In this document: positions 51,083 through 64,000 of the stretch, in pieces
Numbering within the stretch: position 1 is the first letter of the stretch
Layout of the letters: each line of letters begins with the position of its first letter
Assembly (NCBI GenBank): GCA_016290215.1
Contig: JAEETH010000013.1
Location: 1-64,000, forward strand
DNA length: 64,000 bases
DNA from: Bacteroidales bacterium
GTDB lineage: Bacteria > Bacteroidota > Bacteroidia > Bacteroidales > F082
Reading direction: 5' to 3'
Translations under genes and position numbers: made by a program
Notes under the pieces: generated by a model
Databases searched by the model: none
What the model saw: the letters and a program-made list of their open reading frames with translations, nothing else
Told to the model about the DNA's origin: nothing

Positions 51083-52797
51083 TGTCTTCTCCCCGGAAGG
51101 GCATCGATCAATTTCTGGGTATAAGCGTTAAGCGGATGTTCGAAAAGGGCATCCGCTTCGTTTATTTCTACGGGCTTGCCGTTGTACATCACCACCACGC
51201 GGTCGCTCATGAAACGCACCACGCTGAGATCGTGGGAGATGAAGATATAGGTAAGATGCCGTTCTTCTTTCAGCTTGTTCAGCAGGTTCAGAACTTGAGC
51301 TTGCACCGATACGTCCAAGGCCGATACCGACTCATCGCAGATGACTAAACGCGGGTTCACAGCCAAGGCGCGGGCGATGCAGATGCGTTGGCGTTGTCCG
51401 CCCGAAAACTCGTGTGGGTACCGGTCGTAATGCGCGGCTTGCAAGCCCACCTGCTCCAGGAGGTCGCAAACCTTTTGGCGGCATTTCTCCTTGTCACTCT
51501 CGATGTTGTGTACAAGCATAGGTTCGGCGATGGCTTCGCCGATGGTGAGGCGTGGGTTGAGGGAAGAGTAGGGGTCTTGGAACACAATTTGTGCCTGTTT
51601 GCGGAAGTCGCGCAGGGCTTGCCCTTTCAAGGCTGTCACTTCGATGCCGTCGAACCACACCTTGCCGTCAGTAGGCTCTGCTAAGCGCAAGATGCTGCGC
51701 CCTAACGTGGTCTTGCCGCAGCCCGATTCGCCCACAAGGCCGAGGGTTTCGCCTTCATACACTTCGAGCGTCACATCGTCAACGGCTTTCACATGGTCGT
51801 AGACGCGACTGAACACGCCTTTGCGCAAGGGATACCAGGTCTTCAGCCCTTCCACTTTCAAGAGTGGCGGCTGGCTATAGAGTCGTTGCAAGTGCTCTTT
51901 GCGCTCCTCGGCGGTGATTTGCAGGTCGTGCAGAATCTGTTCCTTGCCGCCTTGCCATTGTCCGTCGAGGAACTCCTTTACGATGGGCAGCCTTTTAAGG
52001 CGCACGTCCATAGGCGGACGGCAGGCCAAAAGTCCTTGGGTGTAAGGATGCTGGGGGTGGTTGAGGATGTGCTGCACTGTGCCACGTTCCAGTATCTCGC
52101 CGTTGTGCATGACGGCCACATCATCGGCGATTTCGGCCACCACACCGAGGTCGTGGGTGATGAAAATCATGCCCATGCCCGTCTCGGCTTGCAGCTTGCG
52201 CAATAGCTTGAGGATTTCCAACTGCACGGTAACGTCTAAGGCGGTAGTCGGCTCGTCGGCAATCAACAGTTTTGGGTTGCAGGCGATGGCCATGGCTATC
52301 ATCACGCGCTGTTTTTGTCCCCCCGAAAGCTCGTGGGGATAGCTGTCGTAGATGGCTTCTGGTCGCGGCAGCATCACCTGCTTGAAAAGCTCGATGACAC
52401 GCTTTTTGGCTTCGGCCTTACTCACATCTTCATGTTGCAATATCATCTCGCTGACTTGATACCCGCATTTGTAGACTGGGTTGAGCGAGGTCATCGGCTC
52501 CTGGAAAATCATGGAAATGCACTTGCCGCGCACGTCGGCCATCTGGCTTTCGGTGAAGTTCTTGATTTCCTCGCCTTCTATTTGGATGCTGTCGGCGCTG
52601 ATGCGGCTGATTTTGTCGTTCAGCAAACGCATCACAGCCAACGAACTCACCGATTTGCCCGAGCCTGACTCGCCAACAAGCCCCAATGTCCTTCCCGCAA
52701 ACACGTCGAGGTCAATGCCGTGCACGGCCTCAGTCCATTTCCCATCACGGGAAAAGGAGACATGGAGATTTTTGACGGATAGCAGCGGGATAGACAT
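51049..52797 (-). CDS. peptide/nickel-type ABC transporter ATPase with two fused nucleotide-binding domains
   Basis: 582 aa. Domain 1 (1-250) has [16 protein letters not shown] and [11 protein letters not shown]; domain 2 (about 310-565) has [20 protein letters not shown] and [12 protein letters not shown]. Between them is an OppD-type C-terminal segment ([13 protein letters not shown]). This is a DppD-DppF fusion energising uptake of peptides or similar. No permease or binding-protein gene is adjacent. A neighbouring M49-like peptidase fits a peptide-use theme. Convergent overlap of 34 bp at its 3' end. Confidence 0.92.
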
Positions 52798-52836
52798 AGG
52801 TTTGAGATTTGGTGCAAAGATACAGCTTTTTTGGTT

Positions 52837-53018
52837 AAAACTAGCCGCCTATGTCATTCCGAGGAGAGGAAGGAGCGTATGGAAATGCTTTGCATTCGAT
52901 GGAGTCAATCTATAGGCGGCGAAAAAGGGAGTCATGTCTTTCACGACGGCATTAGAAAACATAGATTCCATCCCCGGCAAGCCTCCGCAAGGAATGACAT
53001 GCTTTCTAATGCCTGTTT
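52837..53018. repeat. 182-bp direct repeat, left copy (flanks GIY-YIG gene)
   Basis: Nearly identical to 53455-53636 (two differences seen by eye). It opens with GCCGCCTAT and contains ATAGGCGGC, a perfect 9-bp inverted pair at about 52845 and 52912. GTCATTCC near the left end and GGAATGAC near the right end form a second inverted pair. A short frame inside it is coincidental. Confidence 0.85.
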
Positions 53019-53060
53019 GATCCTTTTAGATTGGGTTTGTTTGGACAAATAGTATTATGC

Positions 53061-53117
53061 CAGCTGCCTATGTCATTCCAAGGAGAGGAATGTGCGTATG
53101 GAATCTATAGGCAGCGG
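53061..53117. repeat. short internal copy of the GIY-YIG-linked repeat
   Basis: About 57 bp matching the first part of the 182-bp repeat but lacking a 24-bp internal stretch. Its stem reads GCTGCCTAT / ATAGGCAGC, so a C:G pair has changed to T:A on both arms together. Confidence 0.8.
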
Positions 53118-53136
53118 TTCAATTCAGTAAAATGTT

Positions 53137-53144
53137 TATTTTTG
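53137..53144 (+). promoter_or_regulatory. -7 box of the GIY-YIG gene
   Basis: TATTTTTG, 26 bp before the ATG at 53170; lies between the short repeat copy and the gene. Confidence 0.45.
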
Positions 53145-53169
53145 TGTCGTCATTATATCGTTATTAAGG

Positions 53170-53451
53170 ATGAATAAGTATTGGGTATATATGATGCAAA
53201 GTGCAAATGGAAGAGCACTATATACTGGTGTTACCAACAATCTGGAAAGACGTGTGGGTGAACATAAAGAGGGTAGAGGCTCAATCTTTACCGCAAAATA
53301 CAAATGCCACAAGTTGGTATATTTTGAGGAATTTGGTTTAATTGATCAGGCGATTTTGAGGGAAAAAGAGATTAAAAATATGACTAGAGCTAATAAGGAA
53401 AAGTTAATAGATACTATTAATCCAGATAGGCGAGATTTGTTTGAACAATAG
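53170..53451 (+). CDS. single-domain GIY-YIG endonuclease
   Basis: 93 aa, the size of the stand-alone (YhbQ/UPF0213-like) GIY-YIG group. Motifs: W-V-Y-M-M at the start (GIY position), L-Y-T-G-V-T-N-N-L (YIG position), catalytic Arg in L-E-R-R-V, His in EHKEG, and the metal-binding Glu in REKEIK. It has its own promoter and no operon partner. It is bracketed by two 182-bp direct repeats and preceded by a short third copy, which suggests it belongs to, or acts on, that repeat. Codon use is more A/T-rich than neighbouring genes, a hint of transfer. Confidence 0.88.
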   Translation: MNKYWVYMMQSANGRALYTGVTNNLERRVGEHKEGRGSIFTAKYKCHKLVYFEEFGLIDQAILREKEIKNMTRANKEKLIDTINPDRRDLFEQ

Positions 53452-53454
53452 TAT

Positions 53455-53636
53455 AAAACTAGCCGCCTATGTCATTCCGAGGAGAGGAAGGAGCGTATGG
53501 AAATGCTTTGCATTCGATGGAGTCAATCTATAGGCGGCGGAAAAGGGAGTCATGTCTTTCACGACGGCATTAGAAAACATAGATTCCATCCCCAGCAAGC
53601 CTCCGCAAGGAATGACATGCTTTCTAATGCCTGTTT
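53455..53636. repeat. 182-bp direct repeat, right copy
   Basis: Begins 4 bp after the GIY-YIG stop codon and ends 40 bp before the -7 box of the next gene. Two base changes relative to the left copy. Together the copies frame a unit of 800 bp (52837-53636). Confidence 0.85.
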
Positions 53637-53676
53637 AACGCTGAATAAAAAAACACCATGCTATTTAAAAAAAGTG

Positions 53677-53684
53677 TATTTTTG
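53677..53684 (+). promoter_or_regulatory. -7 box of the M64 peptidase gene
   Basis: TATTTTTG, 16 bp before the ATG at 53701. It shows that an apparent longer reading frame, running back through the repeat, is not used. Confidence 0.5.
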
Positions 53685-53700
53685 TAGAAAATATCCAGTC

Positions 53701-54969
53701 ATGAAAAAACAAGTGCTTTTATTGTTTGTTATGCTGCCCATGATAGCCATGGCGCAGTTCGACCAGTATTTTACCGAATCCTCCCTCCGCGTGGATTATT
53801 GCCTGACCGGCAACGGTAAGGCGACCACGTTTTCCCTCAAGGAACTCATTCACGAGCCTTACTGGAGCGGCTCCAAGACCAACCTCATCGACAATTTAGA
53901 GTTTGGCAACTATATCGTCAAGGTGTATGAGGCTGGAACCGATAAACTGCTGTTTTCCAAAGGCTACCAAAACCTTTACGGCGAGTGGCAGACCACCGAC
54001 GAGGCCAAAGTCGTCACCAAGACCTTTGACGAATCCGTCATCGTGCCCTTCCCCAAGGTGAAGATTGAAGTTGCCATTTGCTACAAAACTTGGGAAGGCG
54101 AGTTGGTGGAAGGAATGCGCATCACGGTCAAGCCTGACGATTATTTCATCCGTGATTACGACAACCTGAACTTACCCGTCTACGATGCCTGGATTGGCAA
54201 TAAAGACATCACCAAAGCCGTTGATGTGGTGATACTTCCTGAGGGTTACACGCAAGCCGAGATGGGCAAGTTCATCAAGGACTGCGACTTTTTCGTGAAG
54301 AGCATGTTCGATTATGCCCCTTACGACCGCTATCGCGAGAGTTTCAACATCCGTGGCGTGATGGTGCCCTCGGCAGAGAGTGGCTGCACGATGCCCGGCG
54401 ACCACATCTACAAAAACACCGTCATGCGCTTCAGCTTCTGGACCTTTGATTCGGAGCGCTACTGCATGAGTACTGACAACCGCGACATCCGCGACTTGGC
54501 AGGGCAGGTGCCTTACGACCAGATTTACATCCTCGTCAACACGGAGAAATACGGTGGCGGCGGCATATATAACTTCTACTGCTCCAGCGCGAGCAGCAAC
54601 GGCTTTTCAAGCGATGTCATCATCCACGAGTTCGGGCACGGCTTTGCGGGCTTGGCTGATGAGTATTACGACGACGACACTTACGGCGACATGTACAACA
54701 ACGACTTGGAACCTTGGGAGCCTAACCTCACCACGCTCGTCGACTTCGACATTAAGTGGAAGGACATGATGGACAAGAAAACGCCCATTCCCACGCCTCG
54801 CGAGGAGAAATACGAGCACATCATTGGCGTGTTTGAAGGCGGAGGTTACGAGCCCGAAGGCGTCTACAGCCCCCAAATGGACTGTCTGATGAAAACCTTC
54901 AAGGGCCACGACTTCTGTCCCGTCTGCCAACGCGCCATTGAACGGATGATTCTTTATTATAGTAAATAG
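53701..54969 (+). CDS. M64-family (IgA-peptidase-type) secreted metallopeptidase
   Basis: 422 aa from MKKQVLLL at 53701; the frame open upstream crosses the repeat and is rejected. Signal peptide 1-18 (ending AMAQ). N-terminal beta domain (20-150), then peptidase M64: VDVVILPEGYT, F-N-I-R-G-V, and the zinc motif H309-E-F-G-H313-G-F-A-G-L-A-D-E-Y. The C-terminus has a Cys-x-x-C pair (DFCPVCQRAIERM). Founding members cut immunoglobulin A, but substrates of Bacteroidota relatives are mostly unknown. Likely periplasmic or surface-linked; no T9SS domain. Confidence 0.88.
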   Translation: MKKQVLLLFVMLPMIAMAQFDQYFTESSLRVDYCLTGNGKATTFSLKELIHEPYWSGSKTNLIDNLEFGNYIVKVYEAGTDKLLFSKGYQNLYGEWQTTDEAKVVTKTFDESVIVPFPKVKIEVAICYKTWEGELVEGMRITVKPDDYFIRDYDNLNLPVYDAWIGNKDITKAVDVVILPEGYTQAEMGKFIKDCDFFVKSMFDYAPYDRYRESFNIRGVMVPSAESGCTMPGDHIYKNTVMRFSFWTFDSERYCMSTDNRDIRDLAGQVPYDQIYILVNTEKYGGGGIYNFYCSSASSNGFSSDVIIHEFGHGFAGLADEYYDDDTYGDMYNNDLEPWEPNLTTLVDFDIKWKDMMDKKTPIPTPREEKYEHIIGVFEGGGYEPEGVYSPQMDCLMKTFKGHDFCPVCQRAIERMILYYSK

Positions 54970-55032
54970 TGAGGAGAGTTGAGTGAGGAGTTAAGTAGAT
55001 GAGCAGAATTAGTTTACCTATAGGGACGATGA

Positions 55033-55132
55033 CTTGTGACTATGACAATGACCACCTCAACCAAGAGCTGAAATTTCAGCATTTCTGTGAAAGCGGTCAT
55101 AGTCATTGTCAATGGTCATAGTCAATAAGTCC
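55033..55132. repeat. GACTATGAC-word palindrome before cvpA, copy 1
   Basis: TGACTATGACAATGACC faces GGTCATAGTCATTGTC and GGTCATAGTC. A second member with the same words lies at 57408-57522. Confidence 0.6.
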
Positions 55133-55257
55133 AGCGTCAAAAAAGTGTAGTTTAATTTTGAACAGTTACTTAACAGTTAATAGTTTTACGAATTACTCCT
55201 AACTCCACACTCCTAACTGCAAACTGAACAACTGAACAACTGCAAACTGAACAACTG

Positions 55258-55803
55258 ATGAACTATCTCGACATCATCATCGCCATCATCCTTTTCCTCT
55301 TCGGTTTCAAAGGCTTCCGCAAGGGTCTGGTCATCGAGGTGGTCACGCTGTTGGCTTTTGCGGTGGGTATCTATGGCGCGATGCATTTCTCCGACTTCAC
55401 GGCAGCGCATTTGGAAGAGTTTATGGAAATCAACCCGAAGTACCTGAATACTGTCGCTTTTGTGCTGACATTCATTTTGTTGGTGATAGGTGTCAATCTC
55501 TTGGGGAAATGGGTGACCAACCTAATCAAAGCGATGAACCTGAACTTCTGGAACAAGTTGGGCGGCGGTGTCTTCGGGGTGCTCAAGGGCGTGCTGCTAT
55601 GTAGTGTCCTCTTGATGGTGCTCAACAATTTCCAGCTGATTGGCGTGGTGAAGCCTGAGGTGAGGGAGCAATCGAAACTGTATCCTTACATTGAGCAAAC
55701 GGTTCCTTACGTCTATCGCGGCTTCGATTTGGTGAAGGATTATGCCAAAGAGGTTTTGCCCGAGGACAAAGAAAAAACGGAGCCCGAAAGCCCCGTCGTG
55801 TAG
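55258..55803 (+). CDS. CvpA-family membrane protein
   Basis: 181 aa. Four membrane helices (about 5-22, 28-46, 68-88, 104-124), N-terminal Y-L-D-I-I-I-A-I-I-L and the F-K-G-F-R-K-G-L motif of CvpA, and G-G-G-V-F-G-V-L-K-G in the third helix region. C-terminal acidic tail. CvpA was first linked to colicin V export and now to envelope stress and bile tolerance in enterobacteria. Direct word repeats (AACTGAACAACTG) precede the start. Confidence 0.88.
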   Translation: MNYLDIIIAIILFLFGFKGFRKGLVIEVVTLLAFAVGIYGAMHFSDFTAAHLEEFMEINPKYLNTVAFVLTFILLVIGVNLLGKWVTNLIKAMNLNFWNKLGGGVFGVLKGVLLCSVLLMVLNNFQLIGVVKPEVREQSKLYPYIEQTVPYVYRGFDLVKDYAKEVLPEDKEKTEPESPVV

Positions 55804-55827
55804 AGATGCGTTTTTATTGCGTCTCCT
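55800..55827. repeat. GTAGAGA-type hairpin, copy 3, overlapping a stop codon
   Basis: GTAGAGATGCG faces GCGTCTCCTA. The TAG inside the left arm is the cvpA stop codon, so the element has become the gene end. Confidence 0.5.
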
Positions 55828-55838
55828 AATTCGCGTTT

Positions 55839-56519
55839 TTAAATCACCCCTCGTTCCAGCAAGGTCATGATGGTCTCAATCTCGTCGTCCTCGGGGTTGT
55901 TGTGCGGGTCATATTCCGTCTTGAGGTTGTAGCCCCACAGCCGCGCGAAGCCTTGGTAGAAGAAGGCGCGCACCTTGCCGCGCAGTTCCTGCACCACTTG
56001 GTAGGACGTGCTGCCTGTCTCGCGGTCGATGAGGCGGACGAGGATGAGCCCTTGGGTGATGGTGAGGTTCTTCAGCTCTTCCGTATATTGGTCGGTGATT
56101 TCCTTTTCGGCTTGACGCATCAGGCGGTTGCGTTCCGATTTGTCGGACACATGGGCCAAAATCGAGTCGTATTCATGCATCTTGGCTCCCGCCAGTTTGG
56201 CGTAGGGGAACACCTTCTTCACGTTGCTGGCCAAGCGGCGGCCTTGGCGCGTGTCGGTGATTTGCAGGTAGCGTTGCATCAGGTCGATGTCAACCTCGGG
56301 CAGGTAGACGATGAGGGTGGTGTCGCCGTTCTCCTCGATGCGGCCGTAGACCACCGTGCCCGTGATGGGCTCTGAGGGATTGGAGAAGTCGACCACGCTC
56401 GATTTAGGAGTGCTGTGCTTCCCGCCTAAGATTTGACCGTTGGATTGTCTCATAACCAACTGGGCGTTGCCCATCAAGGCCATCATGACCATCGCTGCGA
56501 TTAAGGCTATCTTTTTCAT
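55839..56519 (-). CDS. DUF4294 exported protein
   Basis: 226 aa from MKKIALIAAM at 56519; the longer frame reaches the -7 box at 56594-56601 and is rejected. Signal peptide 1-20 (ending GNAQ). Family pattern: GDTTLIVYLPEVDI, KKVFPYAKLAGAKMHEY, ERNRLMRQAEKEI, LTITQGLILVRLIDRETG, and A-F-F-Y-Q-G-F-A-R-L-W-G-Y-N. This fits DUF4294, a Bacteroidota family of unknown function. The C-terminal Asp/Glu tail is typical. Confidence 0.85.
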   Translation of the reverse strand: MKKIALIAAMVMMALMGNAQLVMRQSNGQILGGKHSTPKSSVVDFSNPSEPITGTVVYGRIEENGDTTLIVYLPEVDIDLMQRYLQITDTRQGRRLASNVKKVFPYAKLAGAKMHEYDSILAHVSDKSERNRLMRQAEKEITDQYTEELKNLTITQGLILVRLIDRETGSTSYQVVQELRGKVRAFFYQGFARLWGYNLKTEYDPHNNPEDDEIETIMTLLERGVI

Positions 56520-56593
56520 GGCAATCAGTTTTTCATTGTTTAACGCTGGAGTGTTTGCAACTATTGTGCCAAACTTTTTCAATGTTCCACCCG

Positions 56594-56601
56594 CAAAGGT
56601 A
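56594..56601 (-). promoter_or_regulatory. -7 box of the DUF4294 gene
   Basis: TACCTTTG on the minus strand, 75 bp before the ATG at 56519. Confidence 0.45.
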
Positions 56602-56622
56602 AACATATTTTGCCAAACACAC

Positions 56623-56651
56623 TTGAATCTAAATTTTTTTTCCTACCTTTG
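56623..56651 (+). promoter_or_regulatory. divergent plus-strand promoter
   Basis: TTG (56623-56625), 18 bp, then TACCTTTG (56644-56651). It reads into a region with only tiny ORFs; the first is 56674-56787. Confidence 0.45.
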
Positions 56652-56673
56652 CGCTGTCAAAACAACACCCCCA

Positions 56674-56787
56674 ATGTGCGCCCAAACAAACATATTTCCA
56701 CCCAAAACGCCAAAGAAAATGCCAATAAGACTTGACATTGTCGGAAATATTTTTACACACACACACACAATTACCCCTCATTATTAA
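56674..56787 (+). CDS. possible 37-aa ORF behind a promoter
   Basis: Starts 23 bp after the -7 box TACCTTTG and reads MCAQTNIFPPK..., ending in THTHTITPHY, which is encoded by an (AC)n run. The composition is not convincingly protein-like; it may be a leader or chance ORF. Confidence 0.2.
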   Translation: MCAQTNIFPPKTPKKMPIRLDIVGNIFTHTHTITPHY

Positions 56788-57075
56788 TTATTGCGCAGAG
56801 CGCAGTCAATGCCTTGCCGCCCGTCGCCACGCCGTGGGACGCCCCTACAAGTATGAGTGGACCGACGAGGACTACGACGACGAGCCCGACGAGGAAATCG
56901 ACGGCGAAGCGCCCACCGACAACGGCGACGAGATGCCGACGGAGAAAAACGGCGAATTGAACGAATGAAACGAATTGTTGAAATCTTGAAATAATGAAAA
57001 GCCATATGCAATAAGCCGTAAGCCCTAAGCTCAGATGCTGCCAAGCTAACAGCTAACGGCTAAAAGCTAAAAGCC
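56788..57075. other. gene-poor stretch with an acidic reading-frame remnant and palindromes
   Basis: Around 56845-56968 one plus frame gives a strongly acidic sequence (YEWTDEDYDDEPDEE and on to a stop) with normal-looking codons but no start in frame; it may be the tail of a lost gene. Then follow AGCTAAC/GGCTAAAAGC word palindromes (57012-57075). Confidence 0.3.
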
Positions 57076-57194
57076 AATCCTGAAATCTTGAAATCTTGAA
57101 ATCCTGAAATCTTTGAATCTTTAAATCTTTGAATCTTTAAATCTTTAAATCTTTAAATCTTTAAATCTTTAAATCTTTGAATCTTTAAATCTTA
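57076..57194. repeat. 8-bp tandem array, about 14 units, upstream of peptide cassette 1
   Basis: Units AATCTTGA, AATCCTGA, AATCTTTG and AATCTTTA run head to tail in 8-bp register and end 36 bp before the start of the small ORF. The second cassette has about 11 units. Confidence 0.85.
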
Positions 57195-57229
57195 AATTCA
57201 TCTTATTGTTTAATTAAAACCTAATCAAA

Positions 57230-57391
57230 ATGAGAAAAAACACATTCAAGCACTATGAGGCTCCGCAGGTGGAGGTCATAGAAATCGAAAACCAAGGCGT
57301 GCTGTGCGCTTCGGGCAATGGTGGCGGCGAAACGTCAGGCTTCGGCGCAGGAACCACTAACATGAACATGCAAGGCGGCTACGGCTGGTAA
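57230..57391 (+). CDS. small peptide gene, cassette 1 (53 aa)
   Basis: 53 codons, too short for routine ORF calls. The first 29 residues (MRKNTFKHYEAP, then E-V-I-E-I-E-N-Q-G-V-L-C-A-S-G) are almost identical to those of the second copy at 59210-59368. The tail (Gly/Asn/Met-rich, ending YGW) is different. No signal peptide. Small Bacteroidales proteins with a Y-x-x-P-x-x-E-x-I pattern and a Cys-x-Ser near residue 27 exist, but I know no function. The conserved-leader/variable-tail form recalls peptide precursors. The gene is followed by a FISUMP lipoprotein gene. Confidence 0.7.
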   Translation: MRKNTFKHYEAPQVEVIEIENQGVLCASGNGGGETSGFGAGTTNMNMQGGYGW

Positions 57392-57407
57392 AGGTTGACG
57401 CGAGACT

Positions 57408-57522
57408 ATTATACTATGACTTGTGACAATGACTATGACAGGGCTGTTAGCAATTAGCTTAGCTACCATGCTAAAAGCCAAAAGCCCGTCAAAGCGGTCA
57501 TAGTCAATGGTCATAGTCAAAA
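57408..57522. repeat. GACTATGAC-word palindrome, copy 2, with nested AGC palindrome
   Basis: CTATGACTTGTGACAATGAC faces GGTCATAGTCAATGGTCATAG, as at 55033-55132. The loop holds a second palindrome (TTAGCAATTAGCTTAGC / GCTAAAAGCC). Confidence 0.55.
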
Positions 57523-57582
57523 AAGTCCCGAAGTCAAAAGAAACGAAAAAGCATAATTATGAACCATCTAACAGAAATCACT

Positions 57583-59046
57583 ATGAAGAGAGTTACATTA
57601 TTGATTGCATTGGCAGCCCTCGTCGTGTTTGCAGGCTGCAAGAAAGAGAAAGAAACCAATGGAGTCGTGCTGAAGGCTTCCATCGAGCAGAACAAGGGCG
57701 AGGGCCGCACCTCGCTCAACCCCATTGTCACGCCCACGGGCTCGACAGCCGAAATCCTATGGACGGCGGGCGACCAAATCCTCGTCAACAACGGCACCTC
57801 AAACGCCATCTTCACCCTCACGGGCGGAGCAGGCACCACCGAGGGCACCTTCGTCTACAACGGTGACTACGCATTTGACGCAAACAATGTGGCCGTCTAT
57901 CCCGAGACCGCGACCCTCAGCGGCAACACGGTGAGCCTCACCCTGCCCGCCGCGCAAACCGCGGCGGCAGGCACCTTCGGCAACGGCGCGAACCCGATGC
58001 TGGGCACCTTCACTGGCCCAAACGACTTGCGCTTCAAGAGCCTCTGTGGCGTGTTGGGCGTGAGCCTGACGGGCGACAACGTGGTCATCACGGGCATTGA
58101 AATCGTTTCGAATGCCCCCACCGACAAGCTGAACGGCATGTTTGAGGCCGACTGCACGGCGGCCGACCCCGTGCTGGCAGCCACGGCGGGCAACACGGGC
58201 ACAAATCACTTGATGCTGAACTGCAATGCTACGCTGACCACCTCGGAAACGCAGGAATTCTACATGGTGCTGCCCGTGGGCGCGTTGGCCAATGGTTTCA
58301 CCATGAATGTCTATAACGGCGGCCCTGATCCCATCTTCAGCAAGAGCACCCAAAGCACTGAGCTTGCGGTGGAATGGAACACCGTGAAGGTGATGAGCGT
58401 CGTGGAAGTGACAGTGGCTGGTGGCGGCGGCGATGACCACGCCTATGTCGACCTCGGCCTGCCGAGCGGCCTGCTGTGGGCAACCAGCAATGTGGGCGCC
58501 AATGCCCCCGAAGAATACGGCGACTACTTCGCATGGGGTGAAACCCAGCCCAAGGTCACCTACAACTGGAGCACCTACCAATACTGCAACGGCGGTGATG
58601 GCTGGAACACACTGACCAAGTACTGCAACAACTCAAGTTATGGCTACAACGGCTACACCGACAACCTGACCACATTGTTGCCCGAGGATGACGCAGCCGC
58701 AGCCAATTGGGGCAACGGCTGGCGTATGCCCACCAAGGAAGAGTTCGAGGAGCTCTACAACAACACGACCGTCACCTGGACACAGCAGAACGGCGTGAAC
58801 GGAAGGCTCTTCACCGCCACGAACGGCAACAGTCTCTTCCTGCCTGTCGCTGGCTCCCGCTACGATAGCAGTCTCTACCTCGCTGGAAGCGTCGGCTACT
58901 ACTGGTCGAGTTCGCTCTACACGGACGACCCGATCAGCGCGTGGAGCTTCGGCTTCAATTCGGACGATTACGGTTACTTCATGGTCAGCAACTATCGCAG
59001 CGGTGGGTTCACTGTACGGCCCGTTTGTTCCTCGCGTCAGAACTAA
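57583..59046 (+). CDS. FISUMP-domain lipoprotein 1, fimbrillin-like N-terminus
   Basis: 487 aa from MKRVTLLI at 57583. Lipoprotein signal with lipobox V-F-A-G-C (Cys18). Residues 25-270 look like a fimbrillin-type beta-sandwich pair (TAGDQILVNNG, YPETATLSGNTVSL, LRFKSLCGVLGVSLTG). After a Gly hinge (AGGGGDDHAYVDLGLPSG) comes the FISUMP (Fib_succ_major) domain of C-type-lectin-like fold: GLLWATSNVGA, YGDYFAWGET, WRMPTKEEFEEL, YYWSSS, and the ending FTVRPVC. The last ~60 codons differ sharply from the second copy, while the preceding 200 bp are nearly identical. Surface-exposed binding role inferred. Confidence 0.82.
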   Translation: MKRVTLLIALAALVVFAGCKKEKETNGVVLKASIEQNKGEGRTSLNPIVTPTGSTAEILWTAGDQILVNNGTSNAIFTLTGGAGTTEGTFVYNGDYAFDANNVAVYPETATLSGNTVSLTLPAAQTAAAGTFGNGANPMLGTFTGPNDLRFKSLCGVLGVSLTGDNVVITGIEIVSNAPTDKLNGMFEADCTAADPVLAATAGNTGTNHLMLNCNATLTTSETQEFYMVLPVGALANGFTMNVYNGGPDPIFSKSTQSTELAVEWNTVKVMSVVEVTVAGGGGDDHAYVDLGLPSGLLWATSNVGANAPEEYGDYFAWGETQPKVTYNWSTYQYCNGGDGWNTLTKYCNNSSYGYNGYTDNLTTLLPEDDAAAANWGNGWRMPTKEEFEELYNNTTVTWTQQNGVNGRLFTATNGNSLFLPVAGSRYDSSLYLAGSVGYYWSSSLYTDDPISAWSFGFNSDDYGYFMVSNYRSGGFTVRPVCSSRQN

Positions 59047-59079
59047 CCTTTGTTTGTTCCGTCACGGGCAATACGGGCA

Positions 59080-59174
59080 AAACCTGAAATCCTGAAATCC
59101 TGAAATCTTTGAATCTTTAAATCTTTGAATCTTTAAATCTTTGAATCTTTAAATCTTTAAATCTTTAAATCTTA
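59080..59174. repeat. 8-bp tandem array, about 11 units, upstream of peptide cassette 2
   Basis: Same words (AATCCTGA, AATCTTTG, AATCTTTA) and same 3' flank as the array at 57076-57194, with fewer units. It ends 36 bp before the second small ORF. Confidence 0.85.
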
Positions 59175-59209
59175 AATTCACCTTATTGTTTAATTAAAAC
59201 CTAATCGAA

Positions 59210-59368
59210 ATGAGAAAAAACACATTCAAGCACTATGAGGCTCCGAAGATGGAGATTATAGAAATCGAAAACCAAGGCGTACTATGTGCCTCAGGCGGCG
59301 GTGCGCAACCACAAAACTTCAACGGAAACGGATTCCAATTCAACACGCGTGATGGCGTGTGGGGCTGA
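59210..59368 (+). CDS. small peptide gene, cassette 2 (52 aa)
   Basis: 52 codons. The leader is nearly identical to the first copy (MRKNTFKHYEAP, I-E-I-E-N-Q-G-V-L-C-A-S-G). The tail differs (Gln/Asn/Phe-rich, ending VWG). The base identity continues upstream through the A/T-rich leader and the tandem array, so the whole unit was duplicated. Several third-position changes within the conserved leader (for example GTG/GTA, CTG/CTA) keep the protein the same, supporting a real coding gene. Confidence 0.72.
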   Translation: MRKNTFKHYEAPKMEIIEIENQGVLCASGGGAQPQNFNGNGFQFNTRDGVWG

Positions 59369-59395
59369 TGTCTAACCTTTAAAACTACTTGAAAA

Positions 59396-60826
59396 ATGAA
59401 GAAAGTATTCAGAACTATGGGCCTCTGCGGCCTCTTAGCGCTTGCCTTCGTATCGTGCAAGAAGGACAAGGAAACCACCGGCAACATGACCTTTGAGGCC
59501 ACCATCAGCCAGCCGACAAGCAATAGCAAAACCCACATCGGGCCCGACAACATGTTGGTGTGGGATGCGGGCAACACCATCAAGGTGTTCAACGCTGCTG
59601 GACAGTACGGCGACTTCACGACCAACGACAACAACGCGGTGACGGCCACCTTCGCGGGCACTTTGACGGCCTCCGAGAGCTACACGGCCTTCTATCCGAA
59701 CGCCCAGTTTGACGGCACTAACGTGCGCGTCGCCGTGGGCGGCACCCAGACTTACGTGGCCGACAACTTCGCGAACAACAGCTACCCGATGCTTGCGACG
59801 AATAGCGGCGACAATTTCCTCTTCCACAGCCATGCAGGTGTGCTGCGCCTCCAGTTCACTTCGGAAGTGGGCGCCACGGTGGGCAGCATTACGGTGGCGG
59901 GTGTAGGCAACGACGTGCTGGCCGGCACGATGGTCTATCCCTATGGCTACCACTACGACTTCAACGACGTGATGCCTTATACGGTAGAGGGCGGCGTGCA
60001 GGAGGTGACCTTGAACTGCGGCGCGGGTGTGACCTTGCAGAGCACCCCTACGGTCTTCAACATCATCCTGCTTGAGAACGCTTTGAGCAACGGCTTCACC
60101 GTTACGCTGAAGGCAGTAGACGGTAGCGAGCTGCAATCGTTCACTGCCCCTGAGGGCAACACGATTATGGCGGAAAACATCGTCATCATGCCCGAGTTGG
60201 CAGTGACGGGAACAGGCGGTGGCGGCGGCGACGAGCACGCCTACGTCGACCTCGGCCTGCCGAGCGGCCTCTTGTGGGCCACCTGCAATGTGGGCGCCAA
60301 CGCTCCTGAGGAATACGGCGACTACTTCGCCTGGGGCGAGACCACGCCGAAGACCACCTTCAACTGGAGCAATTACCAACTCTGCAACGGCAGCGAGAAC
60401 ACCCTCACCAAGTACTGCGACAATTCCAACTACGGCTACAACGGCTTCACCGACAACCTGACCACATTGTTGCCCGAGGATGACGCTGCCACGGCCAATT
60501 GGGGCGATGGCTGGCGTATGCCCACCAATGAAGAGTTCGAGGAGCTCTACAACAACACGACCGTCACCTGGACACAGCAGAACGGCGTGAACGGAAGGCT
60601 CTTCACCGCCGCTAACGGCAACAGTCTCTTCCTGCCTGCCGCTGGCTACCGTTGGGACGTTGGGCTCTACGGCGCTGGCGACTGGGGCTACTTCTGGTCG
60701 AGTTCGCTCCTCACGGGCGGCCCGGGCTACGCGTTGTACTTCATCATCGGTTCGAACTACTACTGCAGTATAAGCTACGACAACCGCTACATCGGGTTAA
60801 CTGTGCGCCCTGTCCGAGAGAACTAA
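59396..60826 (+). CDS. FISUMP-domain lipoprotein 2, fimbrillin-like N-terminus
   Basis: 476 aa, 27 bp after the second small ORF. Lipobox A-F-V-S-C (Cys21). The N-terminal fimbrillin-like part (25-275; VWDAGNTIKVFN, YTAFYPNAQF, LRLQFTSEVGA) is clearly different from copy 1, whereas the FISUMP part after the hinge GGGGGDEHAYVDLGLPSG is nearly the same until about base 60650. There the sequence becomes divergent (WDVGLYGAGDWGYFWSSSLL and on) and ends LTVRPVREN. Divergent N-terminus, conserved core and divergent tip make it a mosaic. Anchored in the outer membrane, by inference facing outward. Confidence 0.82.
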   Translation: MKKVFRTMGLCGLLALAFVSCKKDKETTGNMTFEATISQPTSNSKTHIGPDNMLVWDAGNTIKVFNAAGQYGDFTTNDNNAVTATFAGTLTASESYTAFYPNAQFDGTNVRVAVGGTQTYVADNFANNSYPMLATNSGDNFLFHSHAGVLRLQFTSEVGATVGSITVAGVGNDVLAGTMVYPYGYHYDFNDVMPYTVEGGVQEVTLNCGAGVTLQSTPTVFNIILLENALSNGFTVTLKAVDGSELQSFTAPEGNTIMAENIVIMPELAVTGTGGGGGDEHAYVDLGLPSGLLWATCNVGANAPEEYGDYFAWGETTPKTTFNWSNYQLCNGSENTLTKYCDNSNYGYNGFTDNLTTLLPEDDAATANWGDGWRMPTNEEFEELYNNTTVTWTQQNGVNGRLFTAANGNSLFLPAAGYRWDVGLYGAGDWGYFWSSSLLTGGPGYALYFIIGSNYYCSISYDNRYIGLTVRPVREN

Positions 60827-60929
60827 CTTTTGTTCCGTTACGGGCACGGGCGAAAAAGTTGGCGGGCGGGGCGCCCGCGGTAGCAGGCTACCCAGCCTCG
60901 CCCAGCGGTTTTTTCGCGGCGCATGTTAT

Positions 60930-60965
60930 GTAGAGACGTCGATTTATCGCGTCTCTACTTTTTTT
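60930..60965. terminator. intrinsic terminator of the GTAGAGACG family, copy 4
   Basis: GTAGAGACG (60930-60938) and CGTCTCTAC (60950-60958) pair exactly and are followed by a seven-T run. It would end the cassette transcript. Confidence 0.7.
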
Positions 60966-61104
60966 GTGTGTCGGGTGCAGCAGCCATGTCATCCCCACGC
61001 AGGCTTGTGCGGTGGTGGGGATCTATGGCTGCGACTTTGTACGCAGGGGTTGCGCTGCGCTCCACCGCCTGCTTAAGGTACCTCACCTCTAAGGGGTTCC
61101 GCTG

Positions 61105-61124
61105 AGTCCCGTAGGGACGACGGA
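61105..61124. repeat. copy 2 of the 20-bp dispersed intergenic motif
   Basis: Identical to 21578-21597, followed by a related GCAGGCGG stretch. Confidence 0.6.
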
Positions 61125-61190
61125 CAATAAGCAGGCGGAGCCAACCCCTGCTAACGGTGATGTCGTCTATAGATAAGATAAGGGAAAACC

Positions 61191-62429
61191 TCAATCCCCC
61201 ACATGCAGCTTCTGCAATCCCGACTTCTCAAGCTTGGCCTCAGCGTATGCGCGGTCGATGACCAATTCCGTCGCATTGATGTCGGAGGGCAGTTCAAACA
61301 TGGCATCGTTCAAGATGGCCTCCATGATGCTGCGCAGTCCGCGTGCGCCCACCTTGAACTCGATGGCTTTTTCCACCACGAAGTCGAGCACCTCGTCTTC
61401 AATCACCAAGTTGATGTGGTCCATGGCGAAGAGCTTCTGGAACTGCTTCACCAAGGCGTTCTTGGGTTCGGTGAGGATGCGTTTCAGTGCCTCGGCATCC
61501 AAGGGGTTGAGGTGGGTGATGACGGGCAGACGACCTACGATTTCGGGGATTAGGCCGTATTTCTTCAGGTCGGCGGGTGAGAGGTATTGCAACATGTTGT
61601 CGCGGTCGATGGCCTCGTTGCCTCCGGCACCGTAGCCAATCACATTGGTGCGCTTGCGGGCTGCAATGAGGCGGTCGATGCCGTCGAAGGCACCACCGGC
61701 GATGAAGAGGATGTCCTTCGTGTTGACGGCAATCATTTTCTGCTCGGGGTGTTTGCGTCCGCCTTGGGGTGGCACGTTGACGACCGAGCCTTCCAACAGC
61801 TTCAGCATGGCCTGCTGCACGCCCTCGCCGCTCACGTCGCGGGTGATGCTGGGGTTGTCGCTCTTGCGGGCAATCTTGTCGATTTCGTCGATGAAGACGA
61901 TGCCGCGCTCGGTGGCGGCCACGTCGTAGTCGGCAGCCTGCAACAGCTTGACGAGGATGTTTTCCACGTCTTCGCCCACGTAACCGGCCTCGGTGAGCAC
62001 AGTGGCGTCGGCGATGGCGAAGGGCACGTTGAGCATCTTGGCGATGGTTCGGGCCAGCAGGGTCTTGCCCGTGCCAGTCTCGCCCACGAGGATGATGTTC
62101 GATTTCTCGATTTCCACCTCGTCGGATTCCACTTTCTGGCTGATGCGCTTGTAGTGGTTGTAGACGGCCACGGCCAAGGTGCGCTTGGCTTCGTCTTGCC
62201 CGATGACATACTGGTCGAGGAAACGCTTGATTTCGGTGGGTTTCTTCAGAATGAGGCCTTTCGAATCGAAGCCCTTGCCTTGCTTGGGCTCGCCAAACTG
62301 TTCTTTGACGATGAGATGGGCTTGCTCGGCGCAGTTGTCGCAAATCTCGGCATCGATGCCTTGGATGAGCAGCCGAACTTCGCTGGCTTTACGTCCACAA
62401 AAAGCACAAACTCCTGACTTCTTTGCCAT
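61191..62429 (-). CDS. clpX: ATP-dependent protease ATPase subunit ClpX
   Basis: 412 aa from [10 protein letters not shown] at 62429. N-terminal zinc finger (C8, C11, C30, C33), AAA+ core with Walker A GETGTGKT, Walker B VFIDEIDK, pore loop G-Y-V-G-E-D-V, and the ClpP-docking and sensor-2 regions. It unfolds tagged substrates and feeds them to ClpP. It starts 4 bp after the clpP stop, so the pair is cotranscribed. Confidence 0.97.
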
Positions 62430-62433
62430 TGTA

Positions 62434-63111
62434 TTAGGCTTGTTTCTTGATGAGTACCTCGTCAATCATGCCGTAGGCTTTGGCTTCTTCTGCGGTCATC
62501 CAATAGTCACGGTCGCTGTCGGCCCACACCTTGTCGTAGGTTTGGCCCGAATGTTTGGCGATGATTTCGTACAGTTCTTTCTTCAGCTTCTGGATTTCGC
62601 GTGCCGTGATTTCAATCTCGGTGGCTTGGCCTTCCACGCCGCCCATGGGTTGGTGGATCATGATGCGGGAGTGGGGCAGGGCAGAACGTTTGCCTTTTGC
62701 TCCGGCGCACATCAGTACGGCGGCCATCGAAGCGGCCATGCCGGTGCAGATGGTGGCCACGTCGGGATTGATGAACTGCATGGTGTCGTAGATGCCCAAG
62801 CCGGCATACACGCTACCACCAGGTGAGTTGAGGTAGATTTGGATGTCGCGCTTCGAGTCGGTCGACTCAAGGAAAAGCAACTGGGCTTGGATGATATTGG
62901 CCACGTAGTCGTCGATGGCGGTGCCCAGGAAGATGATGCGGTCCATCATCAGGCGGCTGAACACGTCCATCTGTGCCACGTTGAGTTGGCGTTCCTCGAT
63001 GACGGTAGGGCTGATGTAGCCGCTGTTGTTGATTTTCGAAATATATTGCTCAAGGCCGAGGGTGTTCAATCCCACATGCTTGGTGGCGTATTTGAAAAAT
63101 TCGTTGTTCAT
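62434..63111 (-). CDS. clpP: ATP-dependent Clp protease proteolytic subunit
   Basis: 225 aa. Serine protease with catalytic Ser128 (GMAASMA), His153 (MIHQP) and, by alignment to E. coli ClpP, Asp198 (W-A-D-S-D-R-D). A longer N-terminus than E. coli (about 30 residues before the core) is usual in Bacteroidota. It forms the tetradecameric chamber for ClpX. It follows tig after a 128-bp gap with a palindrome. Confidence 0.97.
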
Positions 63112-63144
63112 TTGTTAGGAGAGTTTTTGAGTTAAAGAGTTTTT

Positions 63145-63237
63145 TGTAGCTTTTAGCTATTAGCCGTTAGCTTTTAGCGATAGTTTCATGCTAATAGCTA
63201 ACGGCTAACAGCTAATGGCCATTTGCCAAAAGCCATA
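63145..63237. repeat. AGCTAAC-word palindrome between tig and clpP
   Basis: TTTTAGCTATTAGCCGTTAGC faces GCTAATAGCTAACGGCTAACAGC (split arms). Same words as at 57012-57075 and inside 57408-57522. Confidence 0.55.
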
Positions 63238-63239
63238 GT

Positions 63240-64000
63240 TTATCTTGCTTTCCGCTCCTCTTCCAGCTTCTTCATGAAGTCGGCGGAGGTGGTTTCGGCG
63301 TAGTTGATGTTCATCTTGCCTTTCAAGAACTTGGTCATCTTAATGTCGGCCAGTTGGTTCTTGAGGTTGTTGACTTGCTTCTCGTCCTTGAGGTAGTTGG
63401 CGGCAATCTTGTCGAGGTTGGCTTTCATGTCGTCTTCCAAGGTGGCGTAGTCGATGCCGGGGAAGATTTGTTTCAGCACGAAGTCTTTCACTTCTTCATC
63501 CTTGATGATGAGCTCGGGGTTGGCTTTCACGATGGCGTCTTCAATGAGTTGCCAACGCAGACCCTTCACGTAGTCTTTCTCGTAGTTCTTTTCGATGTCC
63601 TCGGCGGAGATGTTGCCTTGGCTGTTGTCAACAATCCAACGCTTCATGAAGGCATCGGGCAGGTCGAAGCGGACGGCGGCCACCAACTCGTCAATCATCT
63701 TGTTGAAGAGGATGGGGTCGATTTCGGCTTCATGCTGCTTCTCCATTTCGGCTTTGACGGCAGCCTTGAAAGCGTCGAGGTCCTTGATTTCTTGGTCGGG
63801 GAAAATCTTCTTGAAGAAGTCTTCGTCAAGCTCGGGCTTCTCGTCGCGGATGGCATCGTCGATGATGATGTTGAAGTCGCTGGCGGCGGGAGCATCTTCG
63901 CCCAAAATCTTGGCGGCTTCCTCTTCAGAACCGAATACCTTGGCGAAGTTGACGATGAACTCTGAGCCCACTTCCTTGTCGATGAACTTCTTGCGTTGGG
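63240..64000 (-). CDS. tig: trigger factor, C-terminal part (cut by window edge)
   Basis: About 253 residues are visible. The frame stays open to base 64000, so the apparent GTG at 63971 is not the real start. The visible part is the C-terminal chaperone domain: long helices with FDLPDAFMKRWI, EKDYVKGLRWQLIEDAI, I-K-D-E-E-V-K-D-F-V and the ending KKLEEERKAR. Trigger factor binds the ribosome exit and shields nascent chains. Its place before clpP-clpX is the classic order. The N-terminal ribosome-binding domain lies outside the window. Confidence 0.92.
   Translation of the reverse strand, partial: QRKKFIDKEVGSEFIVNFAKVFGSEEEAAKILGEDAPAASDFNIIIDDAIRDEKPELDEDFFKKIFPDQEIKDLDAFKAAVKAEMEKQHEAEIDPILFNKMIDELVAAVRFDLPDAFMKRWIVDNSQGNISAEDIEKNYEKDYVKGLRWQLIEDAIVKANPELIIKDEEVKDFVLKQIFPGIDYATLEDDMKANLDKIAANYLKDEKQVNNLKNQLADIKMTKFLKGKMNINYAETTSADFMKKLEEERKAR

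Follow-up and report, generated by a model that had tools for sequence, protein, structure and literature searches.

Small YxxP peptide genes paired with lipoprotein genes in a Bacteroidales genome: candidate precursors for an LPP-like modifying module proposed to act in trans

Toward the end of a 64,000-nucleotide stretch of a Bacteroidales bacterium (contig JAEETH010000013.1 of assembly GCA_016290215.1, positions 1 to 64,000; here called the window), two tandem cassettes at 57083-60826 each consist of an octamer array, an A/T-rich leader, a small gene, and a lipoprotein gene. What do the two small genes encode, and why does each stand in front of a lipoprotein gene? An earlier reading of this DNA, made from the sequence only, had described a tandemly duplicated cassette of this composition, and this was confirmed when the arrays, the open reading frames (ORFs), and a 90%-identical repeat (57099-57323, with its second copy at 59079-59303) were located. 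Two further repeated stretches, of 85% and 88% identity, lie in the 3' parts of both lipoprotein genes. We consider it probable that the small genes encode precursors of the RiPP (ribosomally synthesized and posttranslationally modified peptide) type, similar to those of the LPP (linear polyphosphorylated peptide) system, that would bind a RiPP recognition element (RRE) and undergo phosphorylation and trimming in trans; each would have its own lipoprotein as a receptor, carrier, or immunity protein.

The two small genes differ from each other at 8 of their first 29 codons, with 5 of these differences silent and 3 nonsilent. The pN/pS of a 21-codon stretch of the leader was determined across 72 dispersed homologues from the same genus (899 pairs differing at 3 to 22 of 63 bases) and was 0.34. 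The leader is therefore under purifying selection at the protein level, and the sequence-only reading, which had claimed such selection, was right. When 99 genomes of the genus, a group of rumen Bacteroidales, were searched with a peptide profile of 55 rows, 104 peptides were found in 35 of them, with lengths from 37 to 69 aa. All 103 of the peptides that were tabulated (the one on contig C18 of genome G068 was left out) carry Y..P, and 69 of the 72 dispersed peptides (G041 left out) have a serine exactly 19 residues after the tyrosine (Tyr+19). The mean pairwise identity was 0.49 over 20 leader residues and 0.24 over the aligned tails. The L-C-A-S-G motif that had been taken as fixed stood only in its first part: LC.S is common, occurring in 62 of 73 dispersed copies, but the G that follows is not fixed. 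The genome from which the window comes carries three more of these peptides, and all five are located directly upstream of a lipoprotein gene. In one genome, G041, the peptide match was weak (E 8e-4) and the next gene encodes a signal peptide and fails the partner-family test described below; this match is probably of another kind. In a database search, 151 proteins match the peptide at E<=0.01, none of the 120 listed having a Pfam domain, and direct sequence matching of the peptide against solved structures gave nothing meaningful.

Is the lipoprotein gene a regular companion of the peptide gene? The gene directly downstream was scored for each genus peptide with at least 450 nt of downstream sequence (n = 100), and a lipoprotein-like start was found for 97, the doubtful G041 case counted among them; 56 of 240 control genes passed the same loose criterion. 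A profile was then built from 30 partners adjacent to the enzyme module described below and tested on 67 other partners and 223 control proteins. This one profile covered 63 of the 67 partners and none of the controls at E<1e-3. Conversely, FISUMP, which had been named as the constant feature of the partner, was rejected in that role: a FISUMP-like motif was present in 9 of the 97 partners (19 of these 97 sequences were truncated at the edge of the fetched stretch), and the two window lipoproteins scored 21.9 and 16.0 bits with TIGR02145 (FISUMP), below its curated cut-off of 41.65 bits. Taken together, the downstream pairing, the shared profile, and the rarity of FISUMP indicate that the constant unit is a peptide plus one lipoprotein family whose C-terminal domains are optional. 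In this form, the earlier proposal of a precursor peptide coupled to a lipoprotein at the surface is well supported in the genus. In their layout, the partners resemble the fimbrillin-like proteins of Bacteroidales (PF13149; PDB 4k4k); the similarity of the family to these proteins is weak (E 0.023 for 4k4k and E 0.014 for Mfa_like_1 in 1 of 29 members) and far from any accepted threshold.

The FISUMP-like domains of the two window lipoproteins differ from each other at all three codon positions (22/23/19) over their last 65 aligned codons (window about 58837-59043 versus 60629-60823), and the 130 codons before this variable patch differ mostly at the third position (10/7/25). A diversity-generating retroelement was considered as the source of this C-terminal variability and rejected because no near-identical template was found in the organism's own genome; reverse transcriptases were not searched for. 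Within that genome, the variable stretch matched the second of the window copies, plus five sites on contigs C85 and C118 (68 to 79% identity, with one short match of 96%). At a separate group of loci (L224, L225, L226, L233, L234, L238, L239, and L240), lipoproteins matching the partner profile, several of them weakly, have no YxAP peptide and instead follow a gene for a small secreted protein. Most of these small proteins end in P(L/V/I)G(S/G)G...and a hydrophobic tail, with LPXTG_anchor matches at E 0.008 to 0.012 in two of the three scanned, and they are possibly an alternative small partner of the lipoprotein.

A candidate for the machinery that acts on the peptides was found on contig C73 of the window's genome (G000), where a peptide-lipoprotein pair comes after the genes of an HprK-like kinase, a peptidase of the S26 type, a PqqD protein, and a nucleotidyltransferase of family PF14907. 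The nucleotidyltransferase matches PF14907 with E 1.6e-37 and the PqqD protein matches PF05402 with E 2.9e-16; the HprK-like protein has a P-loop, and its matches to TIGR04352 (E 1.1e-5) and to TIGR04249 (E 4e-8) do not reach the cut-offs. We compared this module with LPP, a system stated to be restricted to Bacillota and to have an unknown biological role (Popov et al. 2026; PMC13381572; comparisons with LPP throughout refer to the parts of that paper covered). The LPP core set consists of the signal-peptidase-like LppS, the RRE LppB, the kinase LppK, the NTP transferase LppN, and the exporter LppD; the precursors carry YxxP...S, their leader is held by N33 and D70 of LppB and cut by LppS with the help of the RRE, and LppK phosphorylates a Ser near the new N terminus; in the heterologous host used, no effect of LppN was seen (PMC13381572). 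The two systems share an HprK-like kinase, a discrete RRE with Asn and Asp, an archaeal-type signal peptidase of the SpI type with the Ser/His/Asp motifs of a leader peptidase, an NTP transferase, and precursors with a YxxP...S N terminus (Ser at Tyr+18 in LPP and Tyr+19 here) and a highly variable C terminus; the lengths of the genus peptides also fall within the 35 to 200 aa used for LPP. With this match to the LPP core set, the statement of the sequence-only reading that no system of this make-up had been described was not supported. Differences stand beside these likenesses, among them the following: LPP precursors lie inside the cluster, one to three per cluster, whereas those described here are dispersed; LPP is stated to occur in Bacillota only, whereas this system is in Bacteroidales; and the parts of the LPP paper covered have no lipoprotein partner.

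The individual enzymes were examined at 23 module loci of named MAGs, which appear to come from the genus set itself and were given no weight as independent cases. By simple patterns, the HprK-like kinase was found in 22 of these loci, the S26-type peptidase in 22, PqqD in 23, the peptide in 20, and the lipoprotein in 22. By BLAST, a homologue of the G000 S26-type protein was present in all 23, each with the S[MT].P, HR, and GD[GN] motifs; the relation of this peptidase to SipW is weak (E 0.094 for the G060 protein). In a profile search of the PDB with PqqD, the best match was TfuB1 (E 0.0023), which is listed among lasso RRE-leader complexes (PMC13381572), and LppB was not among the matches. 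Residues N35 and D73 of PqqD are invariant in a five-row alignment and align with an Asn and an Asp of TfuB1; by their spacing they may correspond to N33 and D70 of LppB, which is itself outside the alignment. Seven module loci read gene by gene share one syntenic site beside Lnt/Dus genes, with the peptide directly behind the module. An ABC exporter lies behind the module in G060 and G014, and in this respect these two genomes and Phocaeicola (below) resemble LPP, which has its exporter in the cluster; in G000 and the other genus loci read, the module has no exporter linked to it.

Two other known systems were also compared. Phosphorylated lasso peptides of the paeninodin and pseudomycoidin type share with the present system a YxxP/WxxP leader, a discrete RRE (B1), an HprK-like kinase, and a nucleotidyltransferase, but the peptidase here is of the S26 type, and no lasso cyclase or B2 peptidase was seen by eye among the ORFs of L009, L060-L064, L068, and the Phocaeicola cluster L272, no profile search having been made for them. 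SynChlorMet has a weak likeness, peptide 2 matching ScmA (TIGR04252) with E 0.002 and the HprK-like protein matching ScmC (TIGR04249) as given above, but both matches are far below the curated cut-offs (for ScmA, peptide 2 scored 18.3 bits against 35 bits and peptide 1 had no match), and no radical SAM gene was seen by eye in the module loci.

Do the module and the dispersed peptides belong together? A profile search identified the module nucleotidyltransferase in 34 of the 99 genus genomes, counting only close relatives at E 1.5e-80 or better and treating seven genomes with distant matches only as negative. Both the peptide and the module nucleotidyltransferase were present in 34 genomes, the nucleotidyltransferase alone in none, the peptide alone in 1 (the weak G041 match), and neither in 64 (Fisher p 9e-26, a value that ignores relatedness). 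A peptide gene lies 114 to 224 bp behind the nucleotidyltransferase gene in 31 of the 34 genomes; the three exceptions are G133, whose contig runs on for only about 200 bp past the gene, and G060 and G014, in which the exporter follows the module and the peptides are elsewhere. The joint presence of peptide and module was then placed on a ClpX tree. Thirty genomes were chosen, 15 with the module and 15 without it, including G045, G022, and G030, and after G012 was dropped for its partial ClpX, 29 remained (14 positive and 15 negative). The joint label changed 7 times on this tree, at least 3 of them on well-supported branches.

The same parts are clustered in another family, in Phocaeicola massiliensis. 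A tblastn search of plasmid records with PqqD returned three records (Phocaeicola, Prevotella, and Butyrivibrio), of which the first, 76.9 kb long and deposited as a plasmid of its assembly, holds a complete cluster in the order 38-aa peptide (YEAP, Ser at Tyr+19), lipoprotein, PqqD, nucleotidyltransferase, ABC exporter, HprK-like kinase, and S26-type peptidase. Its kinase, PqqD, and peptidase are 31 to 34% identical to those of G000 (E 3e-41, 2e-19, and 6e-14, respectively), and its nucleotidyltransferase is 29% identical over 141 residues. The lipoprotein of this cluster matched a profile of 40 dispersed partners with E 1.8e-15, the best control giving 0.008. No matching peptide was seen in the Prevotella and Butyrivibrio plasmid records. 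Across 343 other genomes of the order (thresholds of E<=0.01 for the peptide and E<=1e-10 for the nucleotidyltransferase), 11 had a peptide match, 24 had a nucleotidyltransferase match, and 5 had both (Fisher p 0.0004). The in-genus nucleotidyltransferase profile gives the Phocaeicola enzyme only 33 bits, and it can therefore miss distant nucleotidyltransferases. Seventeen distant peptide loci (L102-L118) were collected, and after L109-L111 were left out as spurious (large or out-of-frame ORFs), the 14 analyzed yielded 13 rows, L107 being one long ORF. Among these YxxP peptides from other families, the Ser is at Tyr+19 in 9 of 13 and at Tyr+20 in the other 4. At L107 (G341, 1501-2610, + strand), a single open frame of 369 aa joins a YxxP leader, which by eye has its Ser at Tyr+19, to lipoprotein-like sequence downstream. 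At L103, L104, L113, L114, and L117 (G208, G388, and G307), the YxxP peptides lie directly 3' of large open frames and not before partner lipoproteins. Distant PF14907-like nucleotidyltransferases of other Bacteroidales (L125, L126, L128, L133, and L137) were seen by eye to lie amid glycosyltransferase and sugar-nucleotide genes.

The match of the core enzymes to the LPP set, the YxxP-Ser leader, and the intact enzyme motifs lead us to infer that the module may bind, phosphorylate, and trim the dispersed peptides in trans. In the proposed mechanism, the peptide and lipoprotein genes of each pair would presumably be transcribed together, and a stand-alone RRE of the PqqD type, encoded elsewhere (contig C73 in G000), would bind the leader Y-x-A-P-x-x-E... 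through YxxP. The HprK-like kinase would phosphorylate the conserved Ser at Tyr+19, the S26-type peptidase would remove the leader near this Ser, the cut being predicted, by analogy with LPP, two or three residues before it where the sequence-only reading had looked to a cleavage after A-S-G, and the nucleotidyltransferase may decorate the phosphate. A single module would serve several scattered precursors in this way. The mature peptide would presumably be exported, and the lipoprotein of each pair would most likely bind it at the cell surface as a receptor, carrier, or immunity protein.

Several results weigh against this proposal. Export is its main gap, because a relative of the G060 exporter (at least 51% identity) was present in only 4 of the 11 module-bearing genomes tested, G060 itself included, and the G000 C73 locus has no exporter, nor was there a match to the G060 exporter in G000 at E 1e-40; in G058, exporter matches are at 26% identity. 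Beyond YxxP and a downstream Ser, the leader motif YxxPxVLxHQxIxFETxxS of LPP is absent. Since this full precursor motif and an MsbA-like exporter in the G000 cluster are both missing, we file the system as a new LPP-like variant and not as LPP proper. Only 14 of the 30 module-adjacent peptides carry Ser at Tyr+19, and in 9 of the 30 the whole span from Tyr+15 to Tyr+23 is free of Ser. Four of the 67 tested partners (G012 C95, two in G014, and that in G041) fail the family test. The association of peptide and module is partly phylogenetic, the independent pairs numbering 3 (7 if all branches are used), too few for a significant sign test. Outside the genus, the co-occurrence is loose and several peptide matches are weak or spurious; G421 (6 peptide matches, 95% complete) and G153 (2 matches, 98% complete) have no nucleotidyltransferase match at E 1e-10, and Prevotella oral taxon 299 has HprK-S26-PqqD genes with no YxxP peptide found beside them. 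The downstream partners of the distant peptides match the lipoprotein family in 3 of 13 cases at E<1e-3 and 5 of 13 at E<0.01, and the pairing outside the genus is thus loose. Small genes scattered without lipoprotein partners, which the sequence-only reading had named as the outcome that would speak against a pairing, were accordingly not the pattern in the genus but were in part found in other families.

A different account, which we judge unlikely though the strongest competitor, keeps the modification of the peptide as proposed but makes the lipoprotein a self-immunity protein against an antagonistic product. Small lipoproteins act as immunity proteins in lantibiotic clusters, and such a role would fit the presence of one lipoprotein directly downstream of each precursor, the variable tails that go with different partners, and the patchy gain and loss. 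It fits less well with G045, G022, and G030, where only 114, 198, and 318 bp, respectively, lie between the lipoprotein gene and Lnt, the module site elsewhere in the genus; the module and the peptide are therefore gone there and the lipoprotein is retained, outlasting both. Full-length partners are also between 121 and 772 aa in length, and the extended C-terminal parts of many would suit adhesion or reception better. Decidedly improbable, in our view, is that the peptide is an unmodified small cytosolic partner of lipoprotein expression, chaperone-like or regulatory, linked to the module by descent. The absence of a signal peptide by eye, the constant place upstream of the lipoprotein gene, and the peptide-bearing genomes of the wider order that have no nucleotidyltransferase match are as this account would have them; the module without the peptide was never found in the genus, only 1 of 65 module-less genomes has a peptide match and that a weak one, peptide and module were repeatedly lost together, the YxxP-Ser geometry is that of known RRE substrates, and the complete cluster recurs in another family in P. 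massiliensis, all of which weigh against this account. We give still less weight to the idea that the module has another target, capsule for instance, and accompanies the peptide for a different reason, an idea for which the sugar-nucleotide and glycosyltransferase surroundings of several distant nucleotidyltransferase matches in other Bacteroidales and the mention of capsule loci in the covered parts of the LPP paper (PMC13381572) could be cited, against the one syntenic site beside Lnt/Dus shared by seven genus loci with the peptide directly behind the module and the adjacency of peptide and module in 31 of 34 genomes.

If the LPP-like precursor reading is right, the presence in Bacteroidales of the LPP core enzymes, together with precursors that each go with a member of one lipoprotein family, would offer a first candidate for the binding partner of an LPP product; the complete cluster is carried by P. 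massiliensis, a named species of the human gut. The reading may also explain a class of unnamed small proteins of Bacteroidales, those of the database matches noted above. A more far-reaching version, which we put forward only tentatively, is that one trans-acting LPP-like machine serves an expandable set of precursor-lipoprotein pairs spread over the genome, such that a cell displays several phosphorylated peptides, with a separate lipoprotein to hold or sense each of them. If true, Bacteroidales would have a modular system for displaying peptides at the surface or for self-recognition. No description of such a system, of a Bacteroidales form, or of the lipoprotein pairing was found in the open-licence PMC literature covered, and in the covered parts of a survey of Bacteroidales RiPPs (PMC10352776) the word "nucleotidyltransferase" was not found.

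The octamer array, which had been read as part of the cassette, was rejected in that capacity, since it is a dispersed genome-wide repeat. Its pattern is present at many sites in the genome, on both strands. A strict form of the pattern, three or more clean units, was applied to 20 regions fetched around other matches and gave 15 arrays in 13 of them; none of these 15 arrays outside the window had a YxxP ORF within the next 400 nt. For nine of these 15 (AAATCTTT)n arrays, an unrelated ORF in the same orientation begins no more than about 135 bp downstream. The features of the two cassettes are listed in Table 1.

Table 1. Positions of the cassette features within the window
Feature	Position	Strand	Remarks
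Octamer array copy 1, (AAATCTTT/GAATCTTT)n	57083..57197	+	Dispersed genomic repeat, not cassette-specific
A/T-rich leader preceding peptide 1	57198..57229	+	Inside the 90%-identical repeat
Peptide 1, 53 aa	57230..57391	+	Proposed LPP-like precursor; residues 9-12 are YEAP, Ser28 (Tyr+19) is conserved, tail rich in Gly and Asn
Partner lipoprotein 1	57559..59046	+	Likely start 57586 (signal peptide, MKRVTLLIALAALVVFAGC); C-terminal Lcl_C/FISUMP-like domain about 58588-59025
Octamer array copy 2	59087..59177	+	
A/T-rich leader preceding peptide 2	59178..59209	+	Inside the 90%-identical repeat
Peptide 2, 52 aa	59210..59368	+	Proposed LPP-like precursor; leader as in peptide 1, tail different
Partner lipoprotein 2	59396..60826	+	C-terminal Lcl_C/FISUMP-like domain about 60263-60817

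A scan of 52000-64000 with Rfam returned nothing at gathering scores. Upstream of the cassettes, a 183-bp direct repeat of 99% identity is present at 52836-53018 and 53454-53636, its copies 618 bp apart.

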